Assembly: GCF_037392515.1 (NCBI RefSeq)
Contig: NC_090283.1
Span: 25,250,249 to 25,314,248, forward strand
Source of the DNA: Haliotis asinina
Taxonomy: Eukaryota; Mollusca; Gastropoda; Lepetellida; Haliotidae
Length of the DNA: 64,000 bases
Reading direction: 5' to 3'
This document shows positions 6,001-58,100 of this stretch, one piece after another. Each line of letters opens with the position of its first letter. Position 1 is the stretch's first letter. Both the position numbers and the translations under genes were made by a program. A model generated the notes under the pieces. It searched no databases and was not told the DNA's origin. It saw only the letters and a program-made list of their open reading frames with translations.

Positions 6001-9000
6001 TTGGGGTTGGTTGTATCAGATAGTGTTCTGGAGACTGATGCGTACGTTTCGGTCTGTCCTGGGGTTTGTAGGAGTCTTTTAGTCTTTTAGCTTCTGCAAA
6101 ACTGCTCTTTTTACTGCATTTAATCTTATTAATCTCCATATGCTGTTTCCACACAGGGCAGTCCTTAGAGGAAGATGAGTGTGTTCCAAAGCAGTTGGCG
6201 CACTTATTAAAATTGCTGTCGGCACCCGTGAACGGCCACCTCCTCGTGGTGGGTGCTGGGTAACGCCAAGAGCCGTTCAAACCGCCGTGTGGGTCCGGGT
6301 CAACTAGGTCCATAGCACCCCATTGCTGATTGCAAGGAGCAACCGAATTGGGCAACCTGCTTGCCGTGGGTTGCGTCCCGTGTCGGTGGAGGACGGTAGT
6401 CTGGTGGTTGAGGGCAGTAGGAGCCTGAACCGTGTTCCTGTTGCTCAACACACCACTTTGGCCCTTACTTCACCGAGACGGGTGGTAGAATCGGCCCGAT
6501 TCTATCAATCGGCTGGTCACGCCAAGCCCTGTGTATGGACTTGTACGTCACTGCACAAATTTAATTTGAAAATGTTTTACATTTGGACTTGGTACATTTA
6601 TTCATATCAAATGTCAATGATTTGCAATATGATGTTTTGCTCTTTGCCTAGAGTCTTATGCCAGAAGGCGGTGGCTCATGGGCCAATCTGGTGGATTAGC
6701 TATTTATAACTCTTCTGCTGGAGTATATTATCCGCGTATCCTTGGTGCTGCAAGGTGGAGACCCACTTGTTTTTAGCATTGTCCTTGTGATACTCCGTGG
6801 TGCGTGGGGAGCTCGGATGAAGAACCTTAAAACACTATGGCTTACAAAACTCCCATCACCAAGAAAAAACGTCCTCTTGACACTGATCCTGATGTTAATG
6901 AACAAAGACCGTATACATCTATTGACTCTTGGCCACGTTTTATAGTACTTGAGACTGTTGACAAGACTCCTTTGAAGCTGAACCCTTTGCTGTTCCAAAA
7001 GGCGTCCAAGGCATAGCAGGAGATGTTAAAAATGTTAGACGTTTGCGTACAGGTTCACGTCTTATTGAATGTAATAAGAGACAACAGGCAAATAACCTCC
7101 TGTCAACTAAATGTTTGGTCGGCATTCCCGTATCAGTCTCTGCCCACCGAACGCTTAACACCATCAAAGGCATAGTGCGAGACTGAGACTGCCTTTTTGC
7201 TGATATGCTGGAAATTGATATTGCCTCAGAGATGAAGGAACAAAGTGTGTTGTATGTAAAACGTTTCACTACCCGTAAACACAATGCGATCCAACAAACA
7301 AACACCTATTTGTTTACTCTACTCCGACTGCTCCTAAATCGATAAAGGCTGGTTACTGTCATATCAAAATGGAAATCCACTAAAATGTTTCCAGTGCCAG
7401 AAGTATGGGCATGGCGTCAATACTTGCACATTGTCTGTTGTGCTCACATTGTCTGTTGTGCTCACTGTGGTGAGAAGACACACACAACAGAAGATTGTGA
7501 CAGTAGTTATAAGAAATGCACTAACTGTTCAGGAGACCATTCCTCTTTTTCAAAAGAGTGTCCAATATGGAAGCAGCAGATGGAGATAAACAAACTGAAA
7601 TTTACCCAAAATATTAGTTTTTCAGAGGCAAAACAGCTTGTTCAGAGATCTGAATTAACAGAAAACTCAAAAACTAAGACATCATCTGAGGCGACGAATA
7701 AAGCAACCAGATCAACTTCGGGTTGCCAAACAGATTTGACGTGGTGAACACTGATTCCCCACAGACATTTGCACCTGCAATATCTACACAAACTGCTGAG
7801 CCACTTCCTGGCTCGTCTCAAAGTCAACCAGAGCCAGATTGTGATCAAAATGTGTCATCTCAGTCTACCACAAGGTCTGAATTGTTGTGTAACGTGCAAC
7901 AAACTGCTACAGGCAAAAGTAAACATAAGCCGGATTCTTCCCAAAAACAAAGTGGCACAGCCCCAAAAGGGTCCGAAAATAAGATTAAACTTTTCAACAA
8001 ATATGGATCACTTGAGGACATGGACGTGTCCGAAAATGTCCATTTTAGGGCACACAGCTTGTCGCCCACCAAAAAGGTACGTGGTAGATCCCCAATAAAC
8101 CCTCCAAAACATAGTTTACTCCCACAATATTGTACAGTGGAATTGCAGAGGACTAAGGCATAATTATAATGAGTTACAGATATTGGTCCAGGATTGTACG
8201 CTGTCAGCAGTCTGTCTGCAGGAGACCTACTTAAAGCAGACAGATCTCTTTGAGCTACGTCATTTCAATGCTTATAATTGTTTCTCACCTCCGGGTGACA
8301 GAGCCACTGGAGGATCTTCAATCCTAGTCAAACAGTTATCCATAGCCCCATTACACTCACTGCTAATCTTCAAGCAGTTGCCCTCCGACTCACTTTACAT
8401 GTTACCCTTACATTATGTTCTTTGTATGTCTCACTGTGTACAGCTCTTCAGAAGACCGACCTTCAAACCCTTTACGATCAACTTCCCAAACCGTGTATTA
8501 TCATGGGAGATTTGAATGGCCATAACCCACTCTGGGGCGGTACAACTACGAATACTAAAGGTAAACTATTAGAAGAGTTCTGTTCAGATAACGATTTATG
8601 CTTATATAATGACGGTTCTAACACATATTTACACCCTGGTACAGGGACCTTTTCTGCTCGACTTGTCACTCACAAATTCAGATATACTAAATGAATTTGA
8701 ATGGTCAGTCCACGATGACCTCTGTGGAAGTGACCATTTTCCTACTATACTAAATTCTGTAACTCCGTCTGATGTTCCTCCATCATCAAGGTGGAATGTT
8801 GAAAAGGCTAACTGGGCTTTATATGAAACACTGTGTGCTGAAAAACGTAAACGCAAACGTTTATTGACGCTCCTGATGCTATTAAATGCTTTTCTGATGA
8901 ATTGAACTCTATAGCTGATGAATGTTTACCAAAGTCCTCTGCACTTCCACATATTCTAAAACCATGGTTCAACGATGACTGCAAACAAGCTAGGAAGGCA

Positions 9001-12000
9001 AGGAAAAAAGCAGAACATTATTTCCGTCGCCATCCTATGGTGCATAATTCAAATAAATTAAAAATTTTAAATGCTAAAGCGCGGCGTACTTTTAAACAGA
9101 ACAAAACGCTAATCTTGGCAAAATTATATAACTAAAATAAATTCTCGGACACCCATGTCCAAGATATGGAACATGGTCCAGAAAATTAAAGGTAAAGGTA
9201 CTAAATCTACTGTCCATCATCTTAAACATGGAGATCAATTGCTTACTGATAAATCAGATATCGCAAATAAACTGGGCGAAACCCTTGCTAAACACTCTTC
9301 CTCTTCTAATTATGTACCTAAATTCCAGCAGTATCAAAAACAAGAAGAAAAGAAAACTATTAATTTCAACTCAGACAATGGGGAAGATTATAATGAAACT
9401 TTTTCTAATGATGAACTCCATACTGCTCTTGATCAAGCTCATGATACTGCTACAGGAGCTGATCACATACATTATCAACTCCTGAAGCATTTACCAGAAT
9501 CCTGCCTAGAAACTCTTCTCAATATTTTGGATGATATTTCGACATCGGGTAGCTTTCCTCCCTCATGGCGTGACGCAATAGTAGTACCAATACCTAAACC
9601 TGGATGTGATCATACGGATCCGTCCAACTATCGACCTATTTCACTAACTAGCTGTGTTTGCAAAACCATGGGACGCATGATAAATAATCGACTTGTTTGG
9701 TACTTGGAAACAAACAATCTTATCACAGATATACAATGCGATTTCCGTCAGTACAGTCGATCACTTAGTGCGTTTAGAATCATTTGTGAAAAATGCGCTG
9801 ATTAATAAACAACATGCTGTGTCTATCTTTTTTGATCTTGAGAAAGCATATGACACAACCTGGAAATATGGTATTTTAAGAGAATTTACATGACTTCGGT
9901 TTGCGAGGTCGTTTGCCTGAATTCATAGCCAACTTTTTAAATAACAGGCAATTTCAAGTCCGTGTGGGTTCTACCCTGTCTGATCATTAATAGGTGGATC
10001 TCTATTTGTGGATGATTTTAATATTTCTTGCCGTGGTAAAAATATGCATACTATTGAACGGCAACTACAGCTGTGTTTAAACAGAATAGATAAATGGTTT
10101 CTTGAAAACGGCTTCAAATTTTTTAAATCAAAAACCAGTTGTATACACTTCTGTCGTAAATACAAACCCCGAAAAGACCCAGAACTATTTCTCAGTGGTA
10201 CCCCAATCAAAGTGGTCAAGGAGGCTAAATTCTTGGGACTTATTTTCGACTCACATTTGACCTTTTTGCCGCATATTAAGTCCCTTAAAGCCAAATGCCT
10301 GAAGGCACTCGATTTATTAAAGGTTGTTTCAAATTCAAAATGGGGAGGTGATCAAACTACCCTCCTTCACTTATATAGATCACTGATCCGAACTAAACTT
10401 GATTACGTTTCCATCGTATATGGTGGAGCATATCAAAGCAACCTAAAACTACTTGATCCTGTGCACCACCAAGGCCTAAGACTTTGTCTCGGTTCTTTTA
10501 GAACCTCTCCTATTGACAGTCTACACGTCGAAGCTGATGAGCCTTCTCTCAACTTACGTCGTATCAAACTATCTTTACAATACATTACAAAATTAGCTTC
10601 TAATGAGTCTAATCCCGCATTTAATTGTGTCTTTCATCCTCTCTATGAGGATTTGTATAACAAAAAGTCTTCCCTTGTTCCGCCTCTTGGGCTCAGAATT
10701 AAGCCATTTCTTGCAGCTTTTAGCATTGAGCTGGAAAACGTAGCTCCCTACCGTCTCTTCTCCTCCTTGGCAGTTGGTTAGGCCCCAAGTGGACCTAACA
10801 TTAACCACATTTAAAAAATCAGAAACCAATGAATTACAGTATAAACAAGATTATAATCAATTGAAACATAAATATAGCAATTATAAATCCTTATTTACAG
10901 ATGGGTCCAAGGACGGTGGCGCAGTTGCTTGTGTCACTGTCATTGGATCCAGAACAATATCTTCTAGATTACCCGATAATAGTTCTATTTTTATAGCTGA
11001 AGCTAACGCCATATTAACAGCTCTTAAGTATATCCAAAGACACCCTAAACATAAACAATATGTAATCTATTCCGTTCTCTTTCTTTCCTTCAGGCTATTA
11101 AAATATTTCTTGCAAACATGCACTTTTAATAGAAATTAAAAGTCTTATATCCGTGATCTGATGCAAAAGAAGTGGGACACCCAAGTGGGTATCAATAAAT
11201 TACATGAGATAAAACCTTACATTGGTTATACCCACTTGGGTTGTCAGTCCAGATTTGAAGAGGTTATTTTACGACGATATCGTATTGGCCACACTAGATG
11301 CACTCATGCGTACCTGTTAAAAGGTGAGGATCCTCCATTTTGTATCCCTTGTGATGAGAGAGTTACAGTCAAGCATATTCTGCTTGACTGTGTTGAATTC
11401 TCCATCACAAGGGATAAGTATTTTACAGTTAAAACAATTAAGGATCTTTTTATCAGCGTTAATTCTCATCTAATTATAGATGTTTTGAAAGAAATTGATT
11501 TTTGGTTGAATTTTGAATAGTATGTTTCTGTAAATAGATGTATTTTAATGATTGGTAGTTTGAATTAGTAACTTGAATTGTTGGTGGCTGTAGTCTCAAA
11601 GGTGGTTGAAGTATTGTAAAAGTATTGTCCTCCTGAGAGGTTATGTAAGTCCACAAACATTCACAGTAAATTTAAGTCTACCAGGTTTTTAATCGTAGTA
11701 TTCATGTTATTTTAATTTTGGCTAGTTTTTCGTAGGATCGCCAGCAGCTGAAGGGATGGTGTAAATGCAACTAGGGTCCCTGTAGGTAGCAAAGGTACAT
11801 TAAGCCCCCATGGTCCCTAGTGAGGTGATCTAACTTCTGTTGTTGGTGATCTATAGTCTGCTTTTATATTGTATTGTCTAAATAGTGATATTAGTTTTAA
11901 CTTTCCATGCTAGTTTTAATTGAAAATGTGATATTCTAGTTATTTTACTGCCCTTCGGTGACAGATTTTACCACATGCATATGTTTCATTTAAATGTTCT

Positions 12001-13916
12001 CGTCACGATATGGCTGAGACATTGCCGATGTGACGTAAAATATTAACTCTCCACTCACTAAAATTGCTGTCACAATCTTCCGTTACATGTGTCTTCTCAC
12101 TGCAGTGAGCGCATGCAACAGACGATGTGCAGGTGTTCATACCGTGGCCAAACTTCTGACATTTGAAACATCTGAGAGGGTTGGGAATGTATGTATCAAC
12201 CCTGATATTGCAGTATCCCGCCTTTACTGACTGAGGTGCAGTTGGCGAGGAAAACGAAAACAGATGTGTTTGTCTGATGGATTTCTGAGTTTTTACGGGT
12301 GACAAACCGTTTTACAAAGGTAATTCCTTGAACTTTCGGTGACTATATCCAGTTCTGTCATGTCAGCGAACAATCGATCCCGATCTCGTACAATACCTTT
12401 GCTAGTGTTAAGAGTTCGGTGCGCAGAAACTGAAACGGGTACACCTACAAATGATTCAAGGGAAAGGAGGTTGGATGCTTGCTGCCGTTTGCTACATTCG
12501 ACTAACAAAGCACCGGAACGTAAGCGTCTAATGTTTTTCACGTCTCCTGCAATGCCTTGAATACATTTAGAAACCGCAAATGGATTTAATTTCAGAGCCA
12601 TTTTATCAATAGTCTCAATCACTATAAACCGTGGGCAGTAATCGATAGACTGTGAAGGTCGCTATTCATCATCATTATCGAGTGGACGTTTATTTTTTTT
12701 TAGGGAGTTTCGTAAGCCATATTGAATTTGTATTGTTTCATCATCCGAGCTCCCCACCCACCACGGAGTATCTCAAGGACAATGCTAAAAACAAGCGGAT
12801 CTCCAGCTTGCAGCACCAAGGATACCCGGATGATATACTCCAGTAGAAAAATTAACAGATTAATGATTCCACCAGATTGGCCCATGAGCCACCGCCTTCT
12901 GGCTTACAACTCTAGGCAAAAACAGACATTATCAGACAGACATATCAAATGATATTTTTTAAAATTTGGTGCAACAGTATATTGATGTAGCACAGGGCTT
13001 GACGTGACCAGCCGATTGATTGAATTGGGCCTATTCAGCCACCCGTCTGGGTGAAGTTAGGGCCAAAGTGGTGTGTTGGGTAACAGGAGCACATCATTAA
13101 TGTTTTGAACACTTTACTGAGCTTTGTAAAACATTTTCATCGACAGAACTGGAGTCCCATGGGGTACGTGTCAATGCAATCAGGTAAGTACACCCGAATA
13201 AAAGACTTTTGTGCCTAGGATATTCTATATTTAATGTTGATTCTTTTTGTATCAATTGTATTTTGTATTTGTGTGACTACGGTAACATGAACCCGAGTAA
13301 TAGGCACCCCCAGAATTGGTTTTCATTTGGGGCTGTTATTGATTGAATTGGCTCCTTGCTATCATTTCATTCTCTCTTGCCGTTTTTATAAATTGTGACA
13401 ATGGTATTCAGTCTTGTATTTGCTGTAATGGTGCGGTCATTTTGATATCTGTATCCGTTGTTGTTTCATTGTTTTAGCCCCGGATATGTACCCAGTCAAT
13501 TAGTTTCAGAAGTGATGACTGATGAGGTAGGTGATTTTAATCCACCAAGTCTCGTGTGGAAACCTGTGATTGATAGCATGAGTGACGTTGCTATAAATCA
13601 ACACTCTACCTCGCTTACTACAAGAGGAACTAAGTTCCATTATTTAAGTCCCAGACTTTCCAAGTGGGATGGGGTAACGACTGGTGACCATATAGTACGC
13701 TCTGATTGCAGTATATGTACTACATTATTGCTCTCATTCATTCATATTCAGTTACATCGAGGCCTTGTAAATGCGACGCCAATTGGTCGAGCGGCTACCC
13801 CTGAAGAAATTGGTCACCTTGTGGTCTTTCTAGCCTCGGATAAAGCAGCCTTTGTAACTGGAGAGTGTTTCAAAGCCGATGGTGGGTTCTCAATGACCAC
13901 CCCAGCCCTTGCCTGA
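29..13916 (+). CDS. Short-chain dehydrogenase/reductase, copy 1 (last four exons only)
   Basis: Partial gene; the 5-prime exons lie left of the window. Exons follow splice signals and phase: 29-98, 13147-13183, 13478-13526 and 13752-13916 (stop TGA 13914-13916). They read in one frame through GLYAMSKAALDTFTRYLAHE, then the RVNAI-SPGYVPSQL loop, then a C-terminus with GRAATPEE, VVFLASDKAAFVTG and KADGGFSMTTPALA. YAMSK is the SDR catalytic Tyr-x3-Lys, and the C-terminal pattern is the usual substrate-loop and last-strand region of classical SDRs (FabG-like NAD(P)H oxidoreductases). Exon lengths 70, 37, 49 and 165 equal those of copy 2, so this is a tandem duplicate. The first visible intron is 13 kb because a LINE with nested insertions fills it. 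The substrate cannot be told from sequence. Confidence 0.88.
428..1725 (-). mobile_element. Tc1/mariner transposon inserted in the 3-prime UTR of LINE A
   Basis: The ends are inverted repeats that share TTCCCAGAAATTATTGAGAA (right end read on the minus strand), and both are flanked by TA (426-427 and 1726-1727), the Tc1/mariner target duplication. LINE 3-prime UTR sequence resumes without loss on both sides, so this is a simple insertion. The 1298-bp element carries one minus-strand transposase. Confidence 0.9.
572..1570 (-). pseudogene. Tc1-like DD34E transposase with one in-frame stop
   Basis: On the minus strand the frame is open from 1570 to 572 except for a single TAA at 1298-1300; the pieces before and after it are in the same frame. 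The N-terminal part, probably starting at MAEFTTREKRK, has a helix-turn-helix region (VLACRHGIPLSTVYRTLKNI) and a GRPRK AT-hook-like link. The catalytic part shows FFSDES, HDNDPKHTA and SPDLNPIENVW; 34 residues separate the second Asp from the Glu, giving DD34E. The triad is present, so loss of function rests on the one nonsense codon. About 330 codons is normal for the family. Confidence 0.88.
2062..5585 (-). pseudogene. LINE A ORF2 (endonuclease, reverse transcriptase, RNase H), decayed
   Basis: Reading from 5585 down, fragments match intact ORF2 of LINE J in order: endonuclease (GDLSGHKPIWGG, GSDHFP near 5190-4900), linker, reverse transcriptase (FFDLEKAYDTTWKHG, GVPKGSILSVTLF, SLFVDDFNISC at about 3900-3640) and RNase H (YSDSLSCLQAI near 2600). 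Several frameshifts, stops and short deletions separate them; the stretch after LPSHVGIS near 2440 is deleted. The residue at the ATG position of ORF2 is ATA, overlapping the ORF1 stop as ATAG (5582-5585 on the minus strand). Confidence 0.85.
6221..6278 (+). ncRNA. HDV-like self-cleaving ribozyme at the 5-prime end of LINE B
   Basis: The fold is nested double-pseudoknot: P1 6221-6227 GGCACCC with 6251-6257 GGGTGCT (first pair a G-U wobble); P2 6230-6236 GAACGGC with 6272-6278 GCCGTTC; P3 ACC/GGT closing loop TCCTCGT; then GGGTAAC and a CCAAG segment that would hold the catalytic C. P4 is essentially absent. The cleavage position, 5-prime of the first G, is exactly the junction with the target duplication. 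HDV-like ribozymes at LINE 5-prime ends are known for R2, L1Tc and other clades. Confidence 0.85.
6837..8110 (+). pseudogene. LINE B ORF1 (gag-like), frameshifted
   Basis: Starts MAYKTPITKKKRP at 6837 and continues WPRFIVLETVDKTPLKLNPFA and GVQGIAGDVKNVRRLRTG. A TGA interrupts near 7187 and a frameshift follows near 7330. The region after 7385 has the knuckle-type cysteines (CAHCGEKTHTTEDC and CTNCSGDHSSFSKEC), and a duplicated stretch near 7425-7460 (repeated LHIVCCAHIVCCAH). It ends near RGRSPINPPK at 8100, where a one-base loss removes the usual stop. Confidence 0.82.
8113..11520 (+). pseudogene. LINE B ORF2, several frame breaks
   Basis: Begins IVYSHNIVQWNCRG without an ATG and ends at TAG 11518-11520. 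Endonuclease motifs QETYLKQTD and GDLNGHNPLWGG (8503-8538) and GSDHFPTIL (8734) are visible. RT motifs include FFDLEKAYDTTW (9828) and VDDFNISC (10011); the GVPQGS block is deleted near 9990. RNase H begins FTDGSKDGGA (10900), but the DSLSCLQ to HVGIS part is lost near 11080-11140. The C-terminal CIPCDERVTVKHILLDC knuckle is kept. Confidence 0.85.
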
Positions 13917-28900: not shown

Positions 28901-31900
28901 TATCAGGGTGTTCCACAAGGCAGTATTTTGTCTGTCACAGTTTATCCAAGGTCTTAAATGATTCATTTGGTGGATCACTTTTTATAGATGACTGTAATAG
29001 TTCTTGTCATGGTAGGACTATGCATACTACTGAACGGCAACTGCAGTTGTCTTTAAATAAAATAAATAAATGGTGTGTCGATAACGGCTTTAAATTTTCT
29101 AAATCAAAAACTAATTGCGTATATTCCTAGCGTAAATATAAACCACGTAGGGACCCAGAACTCTTTTTAAATGGCAATCCCATCAAAGTTGTCAAGGACG
29201 CCAAGCTCTTATGTCTGATTTTCGACTCACATTTTACTTTCCCTCCCCATATCAAATCCTTAAAAACTACGGTAAATGCCTGAAGGCACTTGACTTTTTG
29301 AAAGTCGTGTCTAATTCAAAGTGGTGAGGTGATCAGGCTCCCCTTCTACACCTATATAGATCATCTCTCCGTTCAAAGCTTGATTATGGCTCAGTTGTAT
29401 ATGGTGGATCCTGAAAAAGCAACCTTAAACTATTAGATTCTGTCCATCATCAAGATCTAAGACTTTGTCTTGTCTCCGTTCGAACTTCACCTGTTGAAAG
29501 CCTGTAAATCGAGACTGATGAACAATCTCTTGAGCAGAGCCGTATAAAATTAGCTTTACAATATCTACAACAAAACTATATTCCAATGAATCAAACCCTG
29601 CATTTAACTGTGTCCCAAGTGGACCTCATATTGACAACATTTAAAATATCAGAAACTAATAAACTAGAACATAACCAAGAATTCAGCCAACAACGTACTA
29701 AATAAAATGGATATAAATCCTAATTTACAGATGGATTCAATTATGGTGGCGCTGTAGCTTGTGCCACTGTCATTGGATCAAGAACAATATCTTAACGATT
29801 GCCTGATAACAGCTCTATCTTTTACAGAGGAAGCGAGCGTCATATGAACAGCAATAAAATATATTCAAATACATTCAAAGACACCCTAAACATGAACAAT
29901 GTGTAATCTATTCAGACTCTCTTTCTTGTCTTCAGGCTATTAAAAACTTATCATGTAAACATCCACTTTTAATAGAAATTATTGAATTGCATATTGATCT
30001 TGCTACTGGCCTGTACGACATTGTCTTCTGTTGGTTACCCAGCCACGTAGGCATTTCTGGTAACACAATGGCCGATCTTGCTGCCAAGGCAGCACTCAAC
30101 ACATCTGTGACACCACTTTTTATCCCTTACTCTGATCTAATCAGCATTAGAACTTACATCCGTCATCTGATGCAAAAGAAGTGGGACAATAGGTATTAGT
30201 AGGTATTAATAAATTACATGTTGTGAAAAAATTATATTGGTTACATCTACTTGAGGTGCCAGTCCAGATTTGAAGGGGTCACCATGCGACGATGTCGCAT
30301 TGACCACACAAGATATACATGTGGATGTTCGCGTAAAGGTGAAGATCCTCTTTTTTGTATCCCTCGTGATGAAAGAATCACGGTCAAGCATGTCTTGCTT
30401 AACTGTGTTGAGTATTCCATCACAAGGGATACCTATTTTAAATGATGTAGTATGAATCTTTTTACTAATATAGGATTTGTAAAAGAATTTGACTTGTTAA
30501 ATGAATTGTAAATAGATATTTAGATTCGTAACCGAGTAATTGTTAGTGGCTGTACCCTCAAAGGGGATTGAAGCATTGTAAAATTTAAGTCTACCGAGTT
30601 TTTATGCGTAGTAATCTTGTTATTTTTATTTTGGCTACCATTTCGTACACTCACTGAAGGGATGATGTAAATCCAACTAGGGTTCATGCAGGTAGCAAAG
30701 GTATTGTCATTTAAATCAACATGGTCCCTAGTATGGCGATCTACCTTCAGTTGTTGGCGATCTATAGCCCGTGTTTGATAATGTATTGTCGTCTTTAATT
30801 ACAATATTATAGTTTTCATGCCAGTTTTATGTGGCACCCATGAAGAGCCACCTCCTCGTGGTGGGTGCTGGGTAATGCTAAGTGCTCTTCTCCCGTGTGG
30901 ACCCGGGATAGAATGTGTCCACAGCACCCCATTGCTTGTCGTAAGAGGCGACTAAATTGGGCAACCTGTTGGCCGTGGGCTGTTGGTTACCCAGCCATGT
31001 AGGGATCTCTGGTAACACATTGGCTGACCTTGCTGCTAAGGCAGCACTCAACAAATCTGTGACAGCATTGCTTATTCCTTACAGTCATTACAAAGCGAGC
31101 ATTAGATCTTATATCCGTGATCTGATGCAGAAGAAGTGGGACACCCAAGTGGGTATAAATAAATTACATGAGATAAAACCTTACATTGCTTATACCCACT
31201 TGGGCTGTCAGTCCAGATTTGAAGAGGTTATTTTACGACGATGTCGTATTGGCCACACACGATATACTCATTCATATCTTTTAAAAGGTGAGGATCCTCC
31301 ATTTTGTATCCCTTGTGATGAGAGAGTCACGGTCAAGCATATTCTGCTTGACTGTGTCGAATTCTCCATCACAAGGGATAAATATTTCAATGTCAAAACT
31401 GTAAAGGATCTTTTTACAAACATTAATTCTCATTTAATTATAGGTTTTTTAAAAGAAATTGATTTTTTGATTGAATTTTGAACAACATGTTCTGTAAATA
31501 GATGTAGTTTAATTCTTGGTTGTTTAGATTTGTAACTATACATATGGAAATTAATTAAGCAACACCAAATTCAAAGACACATAAAAACTTAACAAAGTTT
31601 AACGAAGTAATTTTGATGATTGATTATTCAATTTTGATGTATTGACATACAGCATGAGCTTTTCATGGGTTGATATGACGCGCGTGAAGCTTGCACAGCG
31701 CACGTGCATTGCTTTAACCTCAACTTTCGAAAAATGCACTTTTTCCCTGGGGTGTTTACAAGCGCAGGTTGTCGATTGCATTCGGTTTTTCATTCATTTC
31801 AATGTCATGGCACGTAGGAAATTATCAGAGGCCACTCGTTGGCAAATAATCGGCATGAGGAATGCTGGTATGTCTCTAAGACAAATCGGGACTCAAATCG

Positions 31901-34900
31901 GACGACATCATTCCATAATTTCAAAACTTTTGAAAAAATACCGGGCCACTAATGAAGTTAAAGACCTGCCTAGACCAGGAAGACCCAGGAAGACCACAGT
32001 CCGGGAGGACAGAGCTTTACTGAGACTTGTACGGCGCAGGTCCTTCGACTCGAGCTCTCGGTTGAGACAGGAGTGGCTTCCAGGGAGACCCATCTCGAAC
32101 AGGACTGTTCGGAATCGTCTGAAAGCTGCAGGATACCGGGCAAGGAGGCCAATCAAGCGACCCAGACTGTCTCCAGCCCATAAGGCAGCCCGACTGGCCT
32201 GGTGTAATGACCGTTTGCACTGGAACATTGCCTCTTGGAGGAAGGTCCATTTCTCAGATGAGAGCCGGTTCTTGCTGCACATGGTGGACGGTCGTACTCG
32301 GGTCTGGAGGCAGAGGAACACAGCAATGGCTCCACGGAACATCCAGGAGACTGTGGCCTTTGGGGGAGGTTCCGTTATGGTATGGGGGTGCATTTCCATG
32401 AACTGCAAGTTGGATATCATTACCATCCGTGGCAACCTTAACGGTGTTCGTTACCAACAGGAGGTTCTTGACAGGGCTGTGGTACCTCATTTTGAGAACC
32501 ATCCTCTGGCAACGAGACCCATATTTATGGACGACAATGCTAGACCTCACAGGGCGCATGCTGTAAATGATTTTTTGCGGCAAAATGCAATTGACAGAAT
32601 TCCATGGCCTGCCATGAGCCCTGACCTCAACCCCATTGAACATTTGTGGGACTTTATTGGCCGTCGTGTGAGGCAGAGAGACCCACCAGTCCATAATCTC
32701 AACGAATTGACGGCTGCCCTGCATGAGGAGTGGAACAGGATCCCCCAGAATCAGATCCGGAGACTCATCCAAGGAATGAGGAGGCGTCTGGAATCGGTGG
32801 TGCGTGCGCAGGGAGGACACACTAGATATTGATGAAAGTCGGTGTGCAGACTCTCAGATGACTGTTCTTTCTTTCCATGTGACATTTGTGTTAATACACC
32901 TGACAACAACGTCTGTGGATGAATAGTAAATTGTGTCCATTTTTTCTTGAATTTAAGACAGTTTTAAGAATTTGGATTTCGTTGCAATAAAGCAAAGTCT
33001 TGATACTTTTTCCCTTTAAGTTGTTTGTCAGAGATCGTCTGTTGAATAAAAAAGTGTCAAACTATATCAACCCGGCATATTTTGATTGTCAGAACACTTC
33101 AAAGTTGCTCCAATAGAAAAAATTGGGGTGTTGCTTGATTAATTTCCAGGTGTATAGAATTGTTAGTGGCTGTACCCTCAAAGGGGGTTGAAGTATTGTA
33201 AAATTATTGTCCTCCTGAGAGGGTACGTAAGTCCACAAACAGTGAAAGTAAATTCTAAATTTCCAGGTTTTTAATCGTAGAATAAATGTCTTTTTATTGC
33301 ATGGCTAGATTTCACAAATTGCTGACGGCTGAGGGAATGATGTAAATCCAACTAGGGTCCATGCAGGTAGCAAAAGTACTGTAAGTCCCCATGGTCCCTA
33401 GTATGGAGATCTACCTTCAGTTGTTAGCAATCTATAGCCCATTTTTACATTGTATTGTCCTGTATAGATAAATTGTTTTAGGCATAGTTACTAGTTTTAT
33501 ATTATAATCTGTGATATCCTAGTTGTTTTACTGTCCGTCGCTGACAGATTTTATAATAGACATATATTTCATTTTAGTATTGAATGTTCTCGTCACGATA
33601 TGGCTGAGATATTGCCGATGTGACGTTAAATATTAACTCACTCACTCACTCACTCACCCAGTTTTATGTATGTATCTGTGATATTCTAGTATTTTTCTGT
33701 CCATCGTCGACAGGTGTTTATAGTGTACATATATTCCATTGCAGTGTTAAATTTCGTCACAATATGCCTGAATCATTGCCGATGTGACGTTAAATATGAA
33801 CGTACCCAGTCTTAGAGTGTGAGTGAGTGAGTTAAAATTTAACGTCACATCGGCAATATCTCAGCCATAACGTGACGAGAACCTTTAAGTGAAATATAGG
33901 TATGTGGTAAAATCTGTCAACAAAGGACAGTAAAATCACAATTTCAATTAAAACTATCATGAAAAGTTAAAACGAATATCACTATTTGGACAGTACAATA
34001 AAAAAACAGGCCATAGATCGCCAACAACAGAAGGTAGATCACCATACGAGGCACAATGGGGACTTACAGTACCTTGGCTACCTGCATGGTCCCTAGTGAG
34101 TGAGTGAGTGAGTTAATATTTAACGTCACATCGGCAATATCTCAGCCATATCGTGCCGAGAACATTCAACAATGAAAAAGAGCATATATACATTATAAAA
34201 ACCCGTCAACGAAGGACAGTAAAACAACTAGATTATTACAATTTCAATTAAAACTAGCATGGAAAGTTAAAACTAATAGTACTATTTAGACAATACAATA
34301 TAAAAACAGACTATAGATCGCCAACAACAGAAGGTAGATCACCACACTAGGCGCCATGGGGACTTACAGTACCTTAGCTACCTTCATGGTCCCTAGCTGG
34401 ATTTACACCATCCCCTCAGCTGCTGGTGATAGTATGCAAGATTAGCCACAAATTAAAGTGACAGAAATACTACGGCTAAAAAAATGGAAGACTAAATTTG
34501 ACTTCAAATGTTTTGGGACTTACTACCCTCTCAGGAGGACAATAATTTTACAGTGCTTCAACCCCCCTCGAGGATACCGCCACTAACACTCTAAGTTACG
34601 AAGTCAACTTCCAAGTATAAAATATTTATCTATTTACAATTCATTTAGTAAATCTAAGTCTTTTAAAAATGCAATAATTAAATGAGAGCTAACATTATTA
34701 AAAATATCCTTCAAAGTTTGTGAATTAAAATATTTATCCCTTGTGATTGAATATTGGTCATTGTACACTTCAATAATTTCAATTAAAAGTGGATGTTCAC
34801 AAGAAATATTTTGAATAGCCTGAAGGCAAGAAAGAGAGTCGGAATAGATTATGTACTGCATATAAATTCAGGCAAACGACTTCGCAACCCGAAGTCAAGT

Positions 34901-37900
34901 AAATCTCTTAAAGTGCCATATTTCCAGGTTGTGTCATATGCTTTTTCTAGATAAAAAACAGATAGACACAGCGTGTTGTTTATTAATTAGTGCACTAAGT
35001 GATCAACGGTACTCCTGGTTTTACAGAAACCACACTGAATATCTGTAATTAGGTCATTGGTTTCCAAGTACCAAAGAAGTCGATTATTAATCATGCGCTC
35101 AATGGTCTTGCAAACACAGCTCGTTAGCGATATAGCCCGATAGTTCGAAGGATCCGTATGATCACGTCCAGGTTTAGGGATAGGGATAACTATAGCATCA
35201 TGCCATGAAGAAGGAAACTTTCCAGATGTCCAGGTATCATCAAATATATGTAAAAGGGTCTCTAAACATGATTCCGGTAAATGTTTCAGAAGTTGATAAT
35301 GGATGTTATCAGCTCCTGTAGCAGTATCATGGGCCTGGTCAAGAGCTGTATGGAACTCTTGAATCGAAAATACCTCGTTGTAATCTTCCCCGTTATTTGA
35401 AGTAAAATTAATAGCTTTCTTTTCTTGCTGTTTTTGATACTTTTGGAATTGAGGTACATGATTCGAGGAAGAAGAATGTTGCGCCAGTGTTTCTCCAAGT
35501 TTATTGGCTATATCTGCTTTATTAGTTAATAACTGGTTTCCATCTTTGAGATGGTGAACACTAGATCTAGAGCCCTTACCTTTGATTTTCTGGATCATAT
35601 TCCATACCTTAGATATAGGTGTGCGGGAATTGATATTACATACATAGTTTTGCCAAGATTTACGTTTACTTTGCTTGAAAGTACGGCGAGCTGTAGCATT
35701 TTGGATTTTGAATTTGTTCAAATTTTGAACCATAGGGTGATGACCTAAATAATGTTCGGCCTTTTTCAGTGCCTTCCTAGCTTGTTTGCAATCAGAGTTA
35801 AACCATGGTTTCCTTATGTGTGAAATTGTAGAGGACTTTGGGATACACTCATCAGCAATGGTGTTTATTATGTCAGAGACATCTTTTATAGCATCGGGAA
35901 CATTAAGAAAACAGTCAGGCCTAAGTTTGTCAGCACACAGTTGGCCTTTCCAAAATTCCATCGTAATGATGGCGGAACATCAGATGGGTGGACAGGTTTT
36001 AATATTGTTGGGAAGTGGTCACTTCCACAGAGGTCATCATGGACTGACCACTCAATTCACTAAATAGGGTGGAATCAGTCATTGATAAATCGAGTGAGTG
36101 AGTGAGTGAGTTAACATTTAACGTCACATCGGCAATATCTCAGCCATATCGTGACGAGAACATTTAATTTTGAAATGAAATATATGCCTATTATAAAACC
36201 TGTCAACGAAGGACAGTAAAACAACTAGAATATCAAAGTGAGTGAGTGAGTGAGTTAATATTTAACGTCACATCGGCAATATTGCATCCATATCGTGACG
36301 AGAGCATTTAATGAGTAATTAGGATAATACAAATGAATTAATAGCACTTACATTGTAAAACCCTGTCGACGAAGGACAGTAAAACTAACTAGAATATCAC
36401 AGAGTAGAATGTAAAACTAGTGAATAGACCTAAAACAATGCATCTATGGAGGACAGTACAATATAAAAATGAGCTATAGGTTGCCAACAACTGAAGGTAG
36501 ATCACCATACTAGGGACCATGGGGACTTACAGTACATTTGCTTCCTGCATGGACCCTAGTTGGATTTACATCATCCCCTCAGCTGTTAGCAATTGTAGAC
36601 AAATCTAGCCATAAACTAAAAACACACTTATTCTACGATTAAAAAGATGGAAAACTGAAATTTACTTCAAATGTTTTTGGACTTATGTACCCTCTCAGGA
36701 GGACAATTGTTTTACGGTACTTCAACCCCCTTTGAGGGTACAGCCACGAACGATTTGAGTTTCTAATTTAATCTTCCAATTTTAAAATATTTATCTATTT
36801 ACAGTTCAATTAACAAATCTAATTCCTTTAAAAACGCAATTATTAAATGGGGGCTAATATTGCTAAAAAGATCCTTCATAGTTTGTGAATTAAAATACTG
36901 ATCCCTTGTGATGGAATACTCAACACAGTCAAGGAAGATCTGCTTGACTGTGATTCTTTCATCACAAGGGATGCAGAATGGAGGATCCTCACCTTTCAAA
37001 AGGTATTCATGAGTATATCTCGTATGGCCAATACGACATCGCCTCATAATGACCTCCTCAAATCTAGACTGACAACCCAAGTGGGTATAACCAATATAAG
37101 GTTTTATTGCATGTAATTTATTTACACCCATTTGGGTGTCCCACCTCTTTAGCATCAGATCTCGGATATACGATCTAATTGTAGCTTTATAATCAGAGTA
37201 TGGAATAAGAAGTGGTGTCACAGATTTGTTGAGAGCTGCCTTGGCAGCAAGATCAGCCATTGTGTTCCCGGAAATGCCTACGTGGCTGGGTAACCAACAA
37301 AAGACGATGTCGTATTGGCCAGTGGCAAGATCATTATGCAATTCAATAATTTCAATTACAAGTGGATGTTTACATGAGAGGTTTTTAATTGCCTGGAGGC
37401 AAGAAAGAGAATCGGAATAGATAATATACTGTTTATGTGTAGGATGTCTTTCAATATATTTAAAAGCCGTTAATATGGCGTTTGCTTCTGCTGTGAAAAT
37501 AGAACTATTATCTGGTAATCTGAAAGATATTGTTCTGGATCCAATGACAGTGGCACAAGCCACTGCGCCACCATCCTTGGACCCATCTGTAAATAAAGAT
37601 TTGTATGTATTATAGTTACTTTTTAATTGATTATATTCTTGTTTATATTGTAATTCATTTGTTTCTGATTTTTTAAACCTCGTCAGTGTTAGGTCAACTT
37701 CGGGTCTAACTAACTGCCAAGGTGGAGACGAAAGTAGACGGGAAGGAGATATATTTTCTAGCTCAATGCCGCAAGCAGACAGAAAAGGTTTTACTCTAAG
37801 TCCCAGAGGCGGAACAAGAGAAGTCTTTTTATTGTATAAATCCACATAAAGAGGATTAAAAACACAGTTAAACGCAGGGTTGGCCTCATTAGAATACAGT

Positions 37901-40900
37901 TTTGTTATATACTGTAAGGAGAGTTTTATACGTCGTTGAGTAAGAGATGGCTCATCGGCTTCGACGTAAAGACTGTCAATAGGAGAAGTTCTAAATGACC
38001 CAAGACATAGTCTTAGACCTTGATGGTGGATAGAATCAAGTATTTTGAGGTTGCTTTTACAGGCTCCACCATAAACGATGGAGCCGTAATCAAGTTTCGA
38101 ACGGATGAGAGATCTGTATAAGTGGAGTAGGGTAGTTTGGTCTCCTCCCCACTTTGAATTGGAAACAACTTTTAACAGATCAAGTGCCTTCAGGCATTTA
38201 GTTTTAAGGGATTTAATGTGGGGTAGAAAAGTTAGATGTGAGTCGAAAATAAGACCCAAGAACCTGGCCTCCTTTACTACTTTGATGGGGGTGCCATTTA
38301 AAAATAATTCTGGATCTTTATGCGGTTTATACTTTCTGCAGAAATGCAAACAATTAGTTTTTGTTATCGAAAATTTAAACCCGTTTTCAAGAGACCATTT
38401 TTCAATTTTATTGAGACAAATTTGTAATTGCCTTTCTACTGTATGCATATTTCTACCTCTACAAGAAACATTAAAATCATCCACAAATAGTGATCCATCT
38501 ACTGAATCACTTAAAACCTTAGAAAGACTATTGATTTTAATACTAAATAAAGTCACAGATAAAATACTGCCTTGTGGAACACCCTGATCTTGATGAAAGT
38601 AGTCTGAGAGGGTTGTTCCCACACGTACTTGAAACTGTCTGTCATTTAAGAAATTGGATATAAACTGAGGCAAGCGACCTCTCAACCCAAAAGAATGTAA
38701 ATCTTTCAAAATACCATGCTTCCAAGTAGTATCATATGCTTTTTCGAGATCAAAAAAGATTGATACTGCATGTTGTTTTTTAATGAAAGAATTTTTTACA
38801 AATGATTCCAAACGAACCAAGTGGTCAATTGTGCTTCGGTTTTTCCGAAAACCACATTGTATATCAGTAATCAGACTGTTGGTTTCCAAAAACCAAACTA
38901 AGCGATTATTTACCATTCGCTCCATGGTTTTGCAAACACAGCTAGTTAAGGAAATAGGTCGGTAATTTGATGGATCTGTATGATCCCTCCCAGGCTTTGG
39001 AATAGGAACAACTATGGCTTTTCGCCATGAAGGGGGAAAATGTTGTGTTATCCAAATATGGTCAAAAATGCCAAGTAACGTTTCGAGACATGATCCAGGC
39101 AAGTGTTTTAAGAGTTGGTAATGGATATCATCAGGCCCTGTTGCAGTATCGTGAGCCTGTGATAGCGCAGTATGAAGTTCATGTAATGAAAATACCTCAT
39201 TATAATCTTCACCATTATCAGATTTAAAATTTACTGGTTTCTTCTCTTGGTGTATTTGAAAAGTCTGGAATTTTGGATGATAATTTGAGGAGGATGAATG
39301 TTTAGCCAAAGTTTCACCCAACTTGTTTGCAATATCAGATTTTTCAGTTAGTATGTTATTATCATTTTTGAGATGCTGAATACTGCTGGATTTGAAACCC
39401 TTGCCTTTAATTTTTTGGATCATATTCCATACCCTTGACATAGGAGTACGGGAATTTATTTTGGAAACGTAATTTTTCCAAGTATGACGTTTAATGTGTT
39501 TAAACGTTCGTCGAGCTTTAGCGTAACTGATTTTTACATTATTTAAGTTATGAACAGTGGGATGAAGACGAAAATATTTCTCTGCTTTCTTCCTTTTCTT
39601 CCTAGCCTGTTTGCATTCATCATTAAAACATGGTTTACGGATGTGCGGATTTACAGAGGACTTAGGAATAGTTTCATCAGCTATATGTTTTAGTTTGTCA
39701 GAGAACATTTTAATTGGATCAGGGACATCCATGAAAAGGTCTGGTTTAAGTTCCATAAGGCAGGTGGCCTGAAATAATGGCCAATTAGCCTTTGAAAAAT
39801 TCCATCTTGTTACAGGCGGATCATCGGAAGGGTTAATTGCTGTAAGTACTGTAGGAAAATGGTCACTACCACAAAGATCATTATGGACTGACCATTCAAA
39901 CTCATTATAAACGTTTGAATCAGTGAGTGACAGGTCTAAAGACGAATATGTTCCCGTTGCAGGATGCAAATATGTGTCAGAGCCATCATTGAATATACAT
40001 AAATTATTATCAGATATAAATTCTTCAAGAACTTTCCCTTTACTGTTGGTATCAGGACTTCCCCATAATGGGTTATGACCATTGAGATCACCCATTATGA
40101 TACAGGGTTTTGGTAATTGGTCATACAAATCTTGAAGATCATTCTGATGGAGAATGGAAGAAGGGGAGATATAGAAGGAACAAAGAGTAAGAGTTATATG
40201 TAAAGTAAGACGAACAGCAACAGCCTGAAGATTGGTTTTAAGTGGAACAGGGCTATGAATAGTACCATGTCTCACCAATATGGAAGATCCACCAGTGGCT
40301 TTGTCACCAGGGGGTGAAAAAGAATGATAAGAATGGTATTTACGCAATTCGAATTTATCAGTTTGTTTCAAGTATGTTTCTTGAAAACTAAATGCTGATG
40401 GTTTATAATCCTGTGCTAGTAGTTGTACTTCATTAAAATTGGTCCTAAGTCCTCTGCAATTCCATTGGATTAAGGAATTACTGTTCATTTAATAGCAGGT
40501 GGTAGTACTGGGGACCGACTTTTCCCCTTCCGAGGCGAACTGCTTCTATTTCGCGCACGGGGATGAGGAGAGACGTCCATGTCTTCTAAAAGTTGAAACT
40601 TGTTATAGACTTGTACATGATCACGTGATCCCTTTTGTACTCGATCAGATTTTTGTCTATAATCTACTTTATGACAAGGATTTTTCACTGCAGGAGATAT
40701 TGTTTGTGATTCAGTCTGGCAAGCTGATGTTGCATGATTCTTATCACCATCAGAATCTGTTGTGCTTAAAGTTTGTTTGTCAGCTTTGACCCAGGTGATA
40801 TCTGTCTGACATGAAACAGACAGCACAGATTTAACATGAGGGCGAGCAACGACAGCAGAGTATGTTATACTTGATGACTGGGGCGAGGCTGCATTTACTA

Positions 40901-43900
40901 AACGTTTTGCCTCATGATAGGTGACATTCTTTTGAGTTTTGATTTTGATAATTTCATATTCACGTTTCCAGATTTCACATGACTTTGATGAAGACATATG
41001 GTCTCCCAGACAATTAACACATTTTGGAGAAGACAAACAGTCAGAACCTTCATGATCTTCTTTACCACATCTGTAGCATGTTGCACGATTCCTGCAAGAT
41101 TGGGCACCGTGACCAAACTTTTGACACTTGTAACAACGAAGTGGATTTGGAATATATTGCTCCACTTCGATATTACAATATCCAGCTTTGATATACTTTG
41201 GATGTTTCGGTTGTGAAAAAGAAATCAAATAAGTATTTGTATTGAAAGTTTCTCCATTTTTCTTAAAAGTGAATCGTTTGACATGAGTGACTCCTTGATT
41301 TTGTAGCTCAGTGGCGATTTCTGTTTCACTCATGTGGGCAAGCCACCGGTCCCTGCCTCTCAAGATGCCTTTGCTGCTGTTCAAAGACTTATGGGGTGAA
41401 ACAGATACTGCAGTATTAGCAAGCTGTTTTGTACCTATGAGGGTAGCTGATTGTTTCGCTGTTTTACACTCTATGAGGAGAAACCCAGATCTAATTTTTG
41501 TAACACCTTGGGCATCCCCAACAAGTCCATAAATTGCTTTTGATGTGGCAAATGGATTGAGTTTTAGAGGTTCACCGTCAGCAGAAGATACAACCAAAAA
41601 TCTGCTCCATGTATCCGGTAATCTGTTTGTAGCACTGTCCTCGTCCGAGGACAAACACTCATCTAGTGCTCGTTTGTGTTTTTTTGGTTGAGCCATGGTT
41701 AATAATACAAAGTTCACCATCCCAGCTCCCCACCCTCCACCGAGTATAACATGGACAATGCTATATACCAGTGGCTCTCCGACTGGCAGCACCAAGGATA
41801 CTGGAATGGTATACTCCAGCAGAAGACTAATTCAAAATTAATCGATCCACCAGATTGGCCCATGAGCCACCGCCTTCTGGGCATAAGACTCTAAGCAAAG
41901 TTCATAACGTCAGTTTTCAAATCTAAAAGTTATATATGAATGAAAAAGCCAAGGCCAAAATTGAAACAGTACATCAAATCTGTGCAATTACATAAATAAT
42001 CCACGCACAGGGCTTGGCATGACCAGCCGATTGGTCGAACCGGGCCCATTCGACCACCCGTCTAGGCGAAGTCAGGGCCAAAGTGGTGTATTGAGCAACA
42101 GGAACACGATTGCAGGCCCCTATTGCCCTCAACCACCAGGATCCCCTCCTCCGCCGACACAGGGCCGCAACCCACGGCAAACGGGTTGGTGGACCAAATA
42201 TCCCCCCGGGTCCACTACGGGGGTGTCGGCGAGCTCTTGGCGTTACCCAGCACCCACCACGAGGAGGTGGCTCGCCACGGGTGCCTAGAATATCAAAGAG
42301 TAGAATATAAAACTAGTAACTATACCTAAAACAATTTATCTATAGAGGACAATACAAGATAAAAATGGGCTATAGATTGCTAACAACTGAAGGTAGATCA
42401 CCATACTAGGGACCATGGGGACTTACAGTACACTTTACATCATCCCCTCAGCCGTCAGCAACTCGGGAAATCTAGCCATTCAGTAAAAAGACACTTATTC
42501 TACGATTAAAAACATGGAAAGTGTGAAATTACTTTGAATGTTTGTGGACTTACGTACCCTCTCAGGAGGACAATAGTTTTACAGTACTTCAACCCCCTTT
42601 GAGGATACAGCCACTAACAAGCACAGTTACCAATTTAAACTTCCGATAATAAAAGATTATCTATTTACAATTCATTTAATAAATCTAATTCATTTAAAAA
42701 TCCAATAATTAAATGAGAACTGATATTAGTAAAAAGGTCCTTCATACTACGTGATTTAAAATAGGTATCCCTTGTGATGGAATATTTCACGCAGTCAAGC
42801 AAGACATGCTTGACCGTGATTCTTTCATCACAAGGGATGCAAAATGGAGGATCCTCACCTTTCAAAAGGTATTTATGCGTATATCTAGTGTGACCAATAC
42901 GACATCGTCGCATAATGACCTCTTCAAATCCGTACTGACAGCCCAAGTAGGTGTAACCAATATACGGTTTTATTTCATGTAATTTATTTATACCTACTTG
43001 GGTCTCCCACTTCTTTTGCATCAGATCACGTATATCAGTTCTAATGATCGCTTTGTAATCTGAGTATGGAATAAGAAGTGGCGTCACAGATTTGTTGAGT
43101 GCTGCCTAGGCAGCAAAATCGGCCATTGTGTTCCCTGAAATGCCTACATGGCTGGGTAACCAACAGAAGACGATGTCGCACTGGCCAGTAGCAAGATTAT
43201 TATACAATTCAATAATGTCAATTAAAAGTGGATGTTTACATGATAAATCTTTAATCGCCTGAAGACAAGAAAGAGAGTCTGAATAGATTATATATTGTTT
43301 ACGTTTAGGGTGCCTTTGAATATATTTAAGAGCTGTTAATATGGCGTTAGCTTCTGCTGTAAAAATAGAACTGTTATCTGGTAATCTAGAAGATATTGTT
43401 CTGGATCCAATGACAGTAGCACAAGCAACTGCGCCACCGTCCTTGGACCCATCTGTAAATAAGTAAGGATTTATAGTTGTTATATTTATGTTTCAATTGA
43501 TTATATTCTTGTTTATACTGTAACTCATTCGTTTCTGATTTTTTAAATGTAGTCAATGTTAGGTCAACCTGTGGTCGAACCAATTGCCAAGGCGGAGAAG
43601 AAAGAAGACGGGAAGGAGCTATATATTCCAGCTCAATGCCGGCTGAAGAAAGAAATGGTTTAATTCTTAAACCAAGAGGCGGAACAAGAGAAGATTTCTT
43701 TTTGCATACATCCTCATACAGAGAACTGAACACACAGTTATATGCAGGGTTTGACTCACTGGAATATAATTTTGTTACATACTGTAAAGCTAGTTTTACA
43801 CGTCGCTGCTCAAGAGATGGCTCATCAGCCTCAACGTACAGGCTGTCAACAGGTGAAGTTCGAAATGAGCCAAGACAAAGTCTTAGACCTTGGTGGTGAA

Positions 43901-55100: not shown

Positions 55101-58100
55101 GGAAACTTAAGTTTCAGTCCACTTTCCATCAGGTTTCCGCACTGCGGAAACCAGGTCATTTTTGCTGTGAAACTGTTTGCGTCCATAACAAGAAACATAT
55201 AACATCAAACTGTAGATATAGGGTTGAAATGTAATGACTCATATTGCTTGATTAACACCGACATAAACTATGGTTGATTGTTTAAGCAACGATCCATGCT
55301 GTAGGGATACTGTGAGATGCATTTACCCGTTCCATTAAATCGCCTCACTGGACAAACACGGGTCACATGGACTTCACCTTAAACGCCAATATTCATGGGA
55401 TGCTAATGTAGATCTGATGTCAAGAGCATGCCAATGTGTCGAATGAATACAGATACACTGCAATGAGGACCTAATCAACTAAATCACGACAGCTTTAAAT
55501 AAGAATGCATACACTTGTCACATCAAGGTATTTCATCTTCGGTGAGACGGGCAGACGATTCAACCATTAATGGTTCATAAAATGCTTGATGATCAGTGAA
55601 TAATTCATGGATAAGGTGTCATAATACCCTGACGGCTTGCGACGTTGTTCATATTGTCAAACATTGGGTTTTATGGACTCGAATAATAAGGAAACGCACA
55701 TATGTACATAGCACCATGTTATCCAAAACGAAAACAAACAAATAAACTGTCATACATCTGTGTTTAGGTGAACAATGCTGGGATATTACTCATGAATCCG
55801 CTGATATCAGTGACTAAAGAAGAGTACGATACAACGATGGCTGTAAACTTGGAAGGACCATTGTTTCTAACACAGTTAGTTGCACCACATTTGATTGAAA
55901 CTAAAGGTATCTCTCTAAATGAATGTAAATGCGTGATTGTGGTTTATGATTTCTATCCTTTTAAGTAACAGTTTATTTTTGAAAACGAAAGAAAGAAATT
56001 GTACACAGATTTATACCCAAAACCAGTTGTTCCCAAAATCAGTTGGTCTATATGCTGTACCTCCTGGAAAGGCCCTTTCAGCACAAACTGATCATTGTTC
56101 ACAGTTTCGGTGAAAATATAGTGAGTCTTGGGGCTGTGATCAAGCATACTCCGTCTGAAAGAAATGACTTTTTAAAACCTATTCTGACAACCGATTGTCA
56201 AAATGTCTACAGGATCCTAATGTGTAAAACATGATCTTTCCGCTTTCGTCCTGAAGATTTTAAGTTTGTACATTCACATTAGGATTTAGTTTGATCAGAT
56301 GTTTTTGTTTCAGGAAACGTGGTCAATAATTCGAGTTGCATCACGACTATGACTGTGAGTGTAATGCTGACGAATTCATAGTCTGTGAAACTAAAACGTT
56401 TCAAACTACATGTAGTTCGTCATGTTTTCGCATTAAGCTAAGATGATATGTAAGAGCATTAGTGGTGCCTGGTTAAAGCTAAGGAAAGTGAACATTTTAT
56501 ATTTTGTATTTTTGGCAAAGTTGTTCAAGTGAGTAAAACCCTTTTAGGACGAAACGATTCGCCCATACTCTGACTAACCATGTGCCCAAACTCAGCATGT
56601 TGGCTGTTTTGGGGCACTTGAATAGCAAAAAACGGCATCTGGGAGATTTTGCAAAATGCTTGTCGAGAACTGGTATAAAAAGGTAGCGAAGAGGTGGCCA
56701 TTTCAGATGACAGAAAACCACCGACATTATGCCATGGCTAACAGCACAAGGGAGAGAGAGGACCCAAGGTATGAGGCAGCTGGGCACCAACGATAGCTAC
56801 ATTGCAAGGGCCCTGAACTGTACACGTGGTACCATAATCAGGGTGTTCCAGCGTTACAGGCAGATTGACAGCACCTAAAACAGGCCACAATGAGGCAGAC
56901 CATGTGTGACGACTCTACAGAAAGTCATCTGCTCACTCTTCATCTGCGCAACCGGATCATCACTGCAACTGCAATGTAAACGACTCTAGGACGTCAAGAG
57001 TCGACGTACCGTGCTACGACGTCTGGGTGCAGCAGGTGTCAGAACTCGACATCCTCTGCGAAGAGTTGACCCAGAAAGATTGTTGTCGTAGGTTACTGTG
57101 GGCAAGGCCTGGCAGGTATGAAATTGGCAGCGAGTGTTTTTTACAGTCGACACAGACCATGTCCCATAATTATGGCCGGGTGCAAGTATACCGTCTCAAG
57201 GAAGAAAGACTAGCACCGAACTGCGTCCAAGAAGACTTAGTGTTAGGGAGCGTTTTGGTGGGGTGGGGAAGAATTTGTGGGAAGCAGCCTACACGTAAAT
57301 CGTAGAACGTGAACACTCAGAGATAGAGAGATGACATGTTTCAACCCGTGGCAATACCATTTCTTCGCCAGCAACAACAGGGAATACTTCTGCAGTACAA
57401 CTACCAAATCTCCCACACCAGGCGATTTGTCCGGAACTTCTTGAACGCCCAGAATACCCACGTTCTTCCATGGCCAGCACGCTCACCTGACTTATAACTC
57501 ATAGAACACGTGTGGTCATCTGAATCACCATCGAACCGACAAGAATTTGCAGACACTCTCAGGAACGAGTGGAATAGCATTCTGAATGACATCATTCGTT
57601 GGCTGACGACATCAATGAGACGGCGAATCTCGGCTTGTATTGCTGCCAGAGGTGATGACACTCGTTACTAAGGGTGCATCAGGGAGCCTTGAAATAACTG
57701 AGACATTCCATGATTGACCTTGTTGTAACTTCCGTCACATGACAGAGTTGGTGCAATGTCCCAAATGCTGCCTTCACTAAATGTATTATAACATAAGAAG
57801 CATTGTATGTTTCGCTTTGGTTTTTTCGATCATTAATAAGGTTGGTCAATTCCTTTTGCACACTAGTTTAGCAACATCAGATTCATCCTTTTAAAATATA
57901 ATTTGATAATTATGTATTTAATGTAGGTTAACACGCTGCTTCTGTTATTTTCGTGTATTATGCAAATGTCTTCGATCAAGTTTCTAATTTTCCTCGTCTC
58001 GTCTGCAGATACCAAAGGATGGTCTTTACACCATGTCAAAAGCGGCTCTGGACATATTTACAAGATACCTTGCTCATGGTTAGTTTTTTACCTCTTCCAA

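Follow-up and report, generated by a model that had tools for sequence, protein, structure and literature searches.

The first 58 nucleotides of a LINE family in the abalone Haliotis asinina very probably form a self-cleaving ribozyme of the HDV-like type without P4, which would release the RNA of the element at its first base, G1, for retrotransposition. The support for this assignment comes from the pairing potential of the segment, the covariation of its P2 helix, a fixed 5' junction with target duplications, and the copy number. The finding would place a P4-less HDV-like ribozyme at the very first base of an animal LINE that has an APE endonuclease and RNase H and is present in thousands of copies.

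LINE elements in the window

The window, by which we mean the whole stretch of 64,000 nucleotides that was analyzed, contains three elements (B, F, and J) that start with this segment. These elements, the reading frames of J, and the neighboring genes are located as follows.

6221..12058, plus strand: LINE element B
30833..33657, plus strand: element F, internally deleted
36239..42285, minus strand: LINE element J, 6047 nt, with an (ACTC)n end, inside the 3'UTR of K, an older copy on the same strand
40485..41795, minus strand: ORF1 of J, 436 aa, with CCHC motifs
36799..40488, minus strand: ORF2 of J, 1229 aa, with APE endonuclease, reverse transcriptase, and RNase H
31642-32832: Tc1/mariner-like transposase gene inside F
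56626-57670: Tc1/mariner-like transposase gene, named by eye from the translated frames
47.9-59.5 kb: exons of a short-chain dehydrogenase gene

An ORF1 with CCHC motifs followed by an ORF2 with APE, reverse transcriptase, and RNase H domains is what we take to be the architecture of I-group LINEs, and on this basis the placement in that group by an earlier note on this DNA is supported, the CCHC motifs having been read by eye (Pfam zf-CCHC, 17.8 bits, under the cut-off of 20.8). R2 carries a restriction-like endonuclease; an identity as an R2 LINE was rejected, given the APE domain and the mutually unrelated flanks of the insertions. Among the matches listed, the relatives of the LINE protein are mostly unnamed, the top two being 62 and 61% identical, and a protein of the limpet Patella caerulea is 52% identical. 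The host, described in the earlier note as a mollusc, is an abalone: the best 29 of the 120 listed matches of the short-chain dehydrogenase are all Haliotis proteins, and the matches include H. asinina (65%), then H. rubra, H. rufescens, and H. cracherodii.

In element F, about 150 nt of the 5' end are joined to the end of ORF2 and the 3'UTR, so that the ribozyme and the 3' end are retained; the element is also interrupted by one of the transposase genes. The claim that LINEs B, F, and J each start with the 58-nt segment therefore holds for the segment in all three, but F is not a full LINE. Divergent ribozymes in copies K and D and in the fragment at 13092 were considered and rejected; similarity to the family starts or ends there at element position ~179-236, and these copies are for that reason regarded as truncated or diverged.

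An HDV-like fold without P4

The candidate ribozymes and the parts of the one in J have the following positions.

42228..42285, minus strand: predicted HDV-like ribozyme of element J, 58 nt
42285-42279 with 42255-42249: P1 of J
42276-42270 with 42234-42228: P2 of J
42268-42266 with 42258-42256: P3 of J, with L3 at 42265-42259
42248-42246: GGG strand of P1.1 of J
42240: candidate catalytic C of J
6221..6278, plus strand: predicted HDV-like ribozyme of element B, P2 type GAACGGC/GCCGTTC, candidate catalytic C at 6266
30833..30890, plus strand: predicted HDV-like ribozyme of element F, P2 type GAAGAGC/GCTCTTC, candidate catalytic C at 30878

The three segments align without gaps, and each fits the HDV-like double pseudoknot without P4. 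In all of them P1 is GGCACCC/GGGTGCT, a helix of 7 bp with G.U as its first pair, J1/2 consists of two bases, and P3 is ACC/GGT (alternatively CACC/GGTG) with TCCTCGT as L3. The letters needed for P1.1, that is two C in L3 and GG after P1', are present and invariant in the three copies. GC(C/T)AAG is likewise found in J4/2 of all three, its C being the candidate catalytic base, and the P4 helix is missing, with just TAAYG (if P1.1 is GGG) or GTAAYG (if P1.1 is GG) between P1.1 and that C. P2 has 7 bp in each copy and a different sequence in each. The earlier description of these segments, including the wobble that opens P1, the L3 loop, the GGG and C(T/C)AAG stretches, and the near absence of P4, agrees with the letters at every position. 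For the bare 58 nt, the predicted minimum free energy fold is a plain hairpin extending P1 in F and J and a different nested fold in B, by a method that does not score pseudoknots.

Compensated changes in P2

All 17 pairs of the proposed fold form in each of the three window copies, which bears out the earlier statement that the P2 variants pair fully, and four of the P2 pairs are altered on both strands. When the partner strand is slid by 1-3 columns, pairing in these copies falls to 33-52%. B and J differ at 8 of the 58 positions, all of them within P2 and all compensated; this corresponds to 8 of the 14 P2 positions and none of the other 44, with F intermediate. Such natural P2 variants are ready-made compensatory mutants. 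Turnover of P2 between subfamilies far exceeds that of its surroundings, and the adjoining 5'UTR of B and J is 81% identical at ungapped positions (69/85), with many gaps.

When 33 copies are aligned (19 distinct rows), the paired cells make up 97.5%, compared with at most 49.5% in the slid controls, and changes on both sides occupy 12 cells versus a shuffled mean of 2.7. Compensated changes are absent from P1, P3, and P1.1 among the copies seen, so these helices rest on conservation and register.

The strict form of a mechanical double-pseudoknot descriptor excludes P4 and requires seven or more non-wobble pairs in P2. It matches the window at three loci (printed as four matches, because one ribozyme can match in two registers) and has no match in 100 dinucleotide-preserving shuffles. 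Looser descriptors match in 3 of 100 shuffles when P4-less folds alone are allowed and in 18 of 100 with any P4 length, while the 31-nt core is found in none of 100 shuffles with 3 mismatches allowed. One extra match of a looser descriptor, at 56989-57050, lies within a transposase-like reading frame and was taken as chance. An L1Tc-like attenuator, in which a downstream AGCACCC would pair with P1', was also set aside as too weak, being found in B and F and absent from J.

Comparison with Rfam models

The covariance-model check proposed in the earlier note gave a divided answer: of 4,227 Rfam families, RF00094, RF02682, and RF01787 included, none has a window match at or above its gathering score, and HDV-family matches appear below threshold. 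The HDV-F-prausnitzii model (RF02682) is the best or near-best of these sub-threshold matches (22.7-30.7 bits). When the whole 64 kb was searched at E up to 5, this model gave 30.7 bits for F and 28.2 bits for B, against a gathering score of 44. J is unlisted in that search even at E 5 and appears, with 22.7 bits for RF02682 and 24.0 bits for RF00094, only when 201 bases are searched. L3, the GGG, and GC(C/T)AAG align with their counterparts in the HDV and F. prausnitzii ribozyme models, and where RF02682 has a 15-nt stretch the abalone ribozyme has one base. These matches are suggestive, supporting an HDV-like identity without deciding it.

The 5' junction and the target duplications

The target duplications that flank the three elements are listed below.

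6208..6220, plus strand: 5' target duplication of B, TAAAATTGCTGTC, second copy at 12059-12071
30821..30832, plus strand: 5' target duplication of F, CCAGTTTTATGT, second copy at 33658-33669
42286..42298, minus strand: 5' target duplication of J, CTTTGATATTCTA(G), second copy at 36226-36238

The duplications are perfect, with lengths of 13 nt in B, 12 nt in F, and 13 or 14 nt in J, and the other copy stands directly after the 3' tail of each element. In the four insertions examined, which are these three and the genome locus L027 (duplication CTATTCATGAACT), a perfect duplication of 12-14 nt ends at G1 of P1. The predicted cut was said to fall on the junction between element and duplication in B, F, and J, and it does; for J this is exact to within one base, because one G is common to target and element. 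J and F lie at nearly the same point of the 3'UTR in two different older copies, their junctions differing by about 20 nt.

Copies across the genome

The 1.14-Gb assembly contains 3,751 exact matches to the 31-nt core (1,894 + 1,857) and none to its reversed pattern; the former number counts copies and not insertions, since segmental duplication inflates it. J-type cores with both P2 strands are found at 2,935 places (1,467 + 1,468), with 0 for the reversed control. A stretch of 200 kb at one chromosome end contained neither a core, with up to 4 substitutions allowed, nor a 3' tail of this LINE.

Thirty genome copies (L024-L053, C1:0.77-1.98 Mb) were picked by an exact match to columns 16-46, so invariance within those columns, the candidate catalytic C included, is no evidence, as the search pattern fixed them. 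The pattern left free the 5' strand of P1 and the greater part of each P2 strand. In these copies the segment begins at one and the same base, and their 30-nt upstream flanks are unrelated (mean pairwise identity 0.28). GGCACCC is exact at the start of 28 copies, and all seven P1 pairs form in 28. Loss of P2 pairing in most other copies had been named in the earlier note as grounds for doubt; P2 is kept throughout the thirty, with seven pairs in 24 and six in the other 6. By type, 25 of the thirty are J-like, 4 F-like (two with a broken pair), and 1 B-like, so that each P2 type known from the window is found again as a subfamily.

A further 20 copies (L054-L073, C1:5.35-5.99 Mb) show 8 or 9 distinct upstream flanks, and 19 of them begin with GGCACCC. 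One ribozyme-bearing insertion flank was seen 6 times among these 20 copies, which points to recent tandem or segmental duplications in that region.

A scan of genome contigs gave three loci, one of them with a 5' region, and scans of viral contigs gave none. The LINE of locus L002 lies on a scaffold of the Solemya velum gill symbiont, perhaps as a result of host contamination or chimeric assembly of this bacterial scaffold. A part of the 5'UTR that lies 3' of the ribozyme (GTCGTAAGAGGCGACTAAA...GGGCAACCTG) is common to L002:7935-8110 and positions 30890-30990 of the window. A degenerate ribozyme was sought in L002 and rejected, as neither the descriptor nor the three-copy model found one (best 7.6 bits, E 3.6).

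Same-strand nesting

We considered an element to be abutting another when a further copy of the family lies within 30 nt upstream, and examined 33 ribozyme-bearing 5' ends (30 genomic and 3 in the window). Twelve of the 33 adjoin a copy in the same orientation and none a copy in the opposite orientation. In the 1.5 kb upstream of these ends, same-strand family matches add up to 21,425 bp and those in the opposite orientation to 1,362 bp. Among about 8 distinct insertions at C1:5.35-5.99 Mb, 2 more adjoin a same-strand copy and 0 an opposite one, which brings the total to 14 versus 0 among ~41 independent insertions (sign test p = 0.00012), in a sample drawn from two parts of one chromosome and the window. 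F provides one further same-strand case, at 40 nt and so beyond the 30-nt limit. J, F, and L027 each sit inside a host copy that carries their target duplication. Copies of opposite orientation do exist at greater distances upstream, in the cases of B, L046, and a duplicated insertion of which L059 is the representative.

Three 5'-truncated minus-strand copies (36093/36085, 34095/34097, and 23480/23463) start at most ~20 nt from the end of a same-strand, (ACTC)n-tailed upstream copy, forming head-to-tail arrays. The microsatellite tail of existing copies may serve the family as an insertion target.

An ordinary explanation of the same-strand bias would be a loss of inverted pairs, as is described for Alu (PMC3215922). 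More boldly, new copies may insert or survive preferentially where they would be co-transcribed with an old one. Carried to its end, this becomes the rather improbable proposal that the LINE builds its own transcription units, with sense-only nesting, ribozymes that resolve the read-through at each nested 5' end, and a P2 that diversifies between subfamilies under full compensation. If true, self-nesting and ribozymes would replace a strong internal promoter in a LINE family. Co-transcription of nested copies followed by their separation through the ribozyme becomes testable.

Mechanism and alternative explanations

We infer cleavage, a catalytic role for the C of J4/2, and a dependence on transcription from outside, often from a copy of the same family. 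A read-through transcript would enter the element from outside and fold, as RNA, into the double pseudoknot of P1, P2, P3, and P1.1; the ribozyme would then cut immediately before G1, so that the remaining RNA starts at the first base of the element. The released RNA would be translated and then reverse-transcribed by target-primed reverse transcription. With the cut RNA as the template, complete new copies would again begin at G1, whatever their flank. A model of this kind, in which cleavage precedes target-primed reverse transcription, is described for R2 and L1Tc (PMC3774820, PMC4035085).

The absence of P4 could slow cleavage, and one alternative is that the fold was once a ribozyme and is now too slow, transcription starting at G1 from an internal promoter. 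Internal promoters that start at the 5' end have been shown for some other non-LTR elements. P4 appears to stabilize ribozymes of the HDV type, and the R2 ribozyme of the silkmoth, P4-less and with a very long J1/2, had very low activity (PMC3774820); Pr77 of L1Tc acts as both promoter and ribozyme (PMC4035085). Under a pure promoter, however, the compensated changes of P2 would be without reason, P4-less minimal ribozymes from other sources do cleave in vitro (PMC10879173), and the HDV ribozyme is said not to need P4 for its activity (PMC3774820), all of which makes this alternative quite improbable. Strong conservation with P2 covariation is compatible with any structured RNA, and a further 5'UTR segment is shared with L002; the 58 nt might instead be a conserved RNA structure with a non-catalytic role, such as binding of the ORF1 protein or translation. 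An arbitrary structure would not be expected to carry the HDV signature (a G.U first pair, a CC-bearing L3, GGG, GC(C/T)AAG, and a double pseudoknot in register), nor to place the predicted cut on the insertion junction, and we regard this possibility as very remote, well behind the promoter. Least probable of all, and close to negligible, is chance pairing within a conserved DNA promoter: the core is nearly invariant, so that most pairs are not probed by covariation, but the strict motif is absent from the shuffled sequences and each of the four variable P2 pairs is compensated. A P4-less self-cleaving ribozyme is the reading we retain.

Comparison with known systems

HDV-like ribozymes are listed for R2, R4, R6, RTE, SART, Baggins, and L1Tc (PMC11620745). 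A parallel in position is Pr77 of the trypanosomatid L1Tc/ingi elements. This ribozyme of the HDV type likewise occupies the very 5' end of a LINE with APE, reverse transcriptase, and RNase H, and internally deleted derivatives of these elements carry it too (PMC4035085), just as F retains the abalone segment. Pr77 is 77 nt long and has P4, whereas the abalone ribozyme lacks P4 and has an HDV-like L3 and J4/2; the same source describes strong nucleotide differences of Pr77 from R2 and HDV. The internal deletion of F resembles those of the R2 SIDEs (PMC3774820) and of the trypanosomatid NARTc and RIME (PMC4035085). The R2 ribozyme cleaves at the 5' junction in Drosophila, and its P4 is variable or missing in some species (PMC3774820). 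R2 inserts site-specifically into 28S rDNA, while the abalone LINE has an APE endonuclease, dispersed sites, and duplications of 12-14 nt.

In their fold, the minimal P4-less HDV-like and phage theta ribozymes (PMC10879173) are similar, with a double pseudoknot, no P4, and a catalytic C that opens J4/2, where the abalone segment has its candidate C. They are reported from phages, often beside tRNAs, and from metagenomes, whereas the abalone ribozyme stands at the 5' end of an animal LINE; the eukaryotes included in that paper are human, mouse, and protists.

The literature searched, mostly as titles and the beginnings of abstracts, contains no paper that links such a ribozyme from an abalone or another mollusc with a LINE. 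The earlier suggestion that the compact fold may be undescribed finds no support as worded, since P4-less HDV-like ribozymes are known and one is cited from an abalone, namely the Haliotis discus ribozyme of Webb and Luptak (2011), in which five nucleotides replace P4 (cited in PMC3774820). It comes from the same host genus, and, compared by description, its five nucleotides in the place of P4 correspond to five or six here. The window being from an abalone, the present ribozyme most likely belongs to the same family as that of H. discus, and the LINE is probably the genomic source of the latter. If the two are the same, the ribozyme cited from 2011 gains a biological role.
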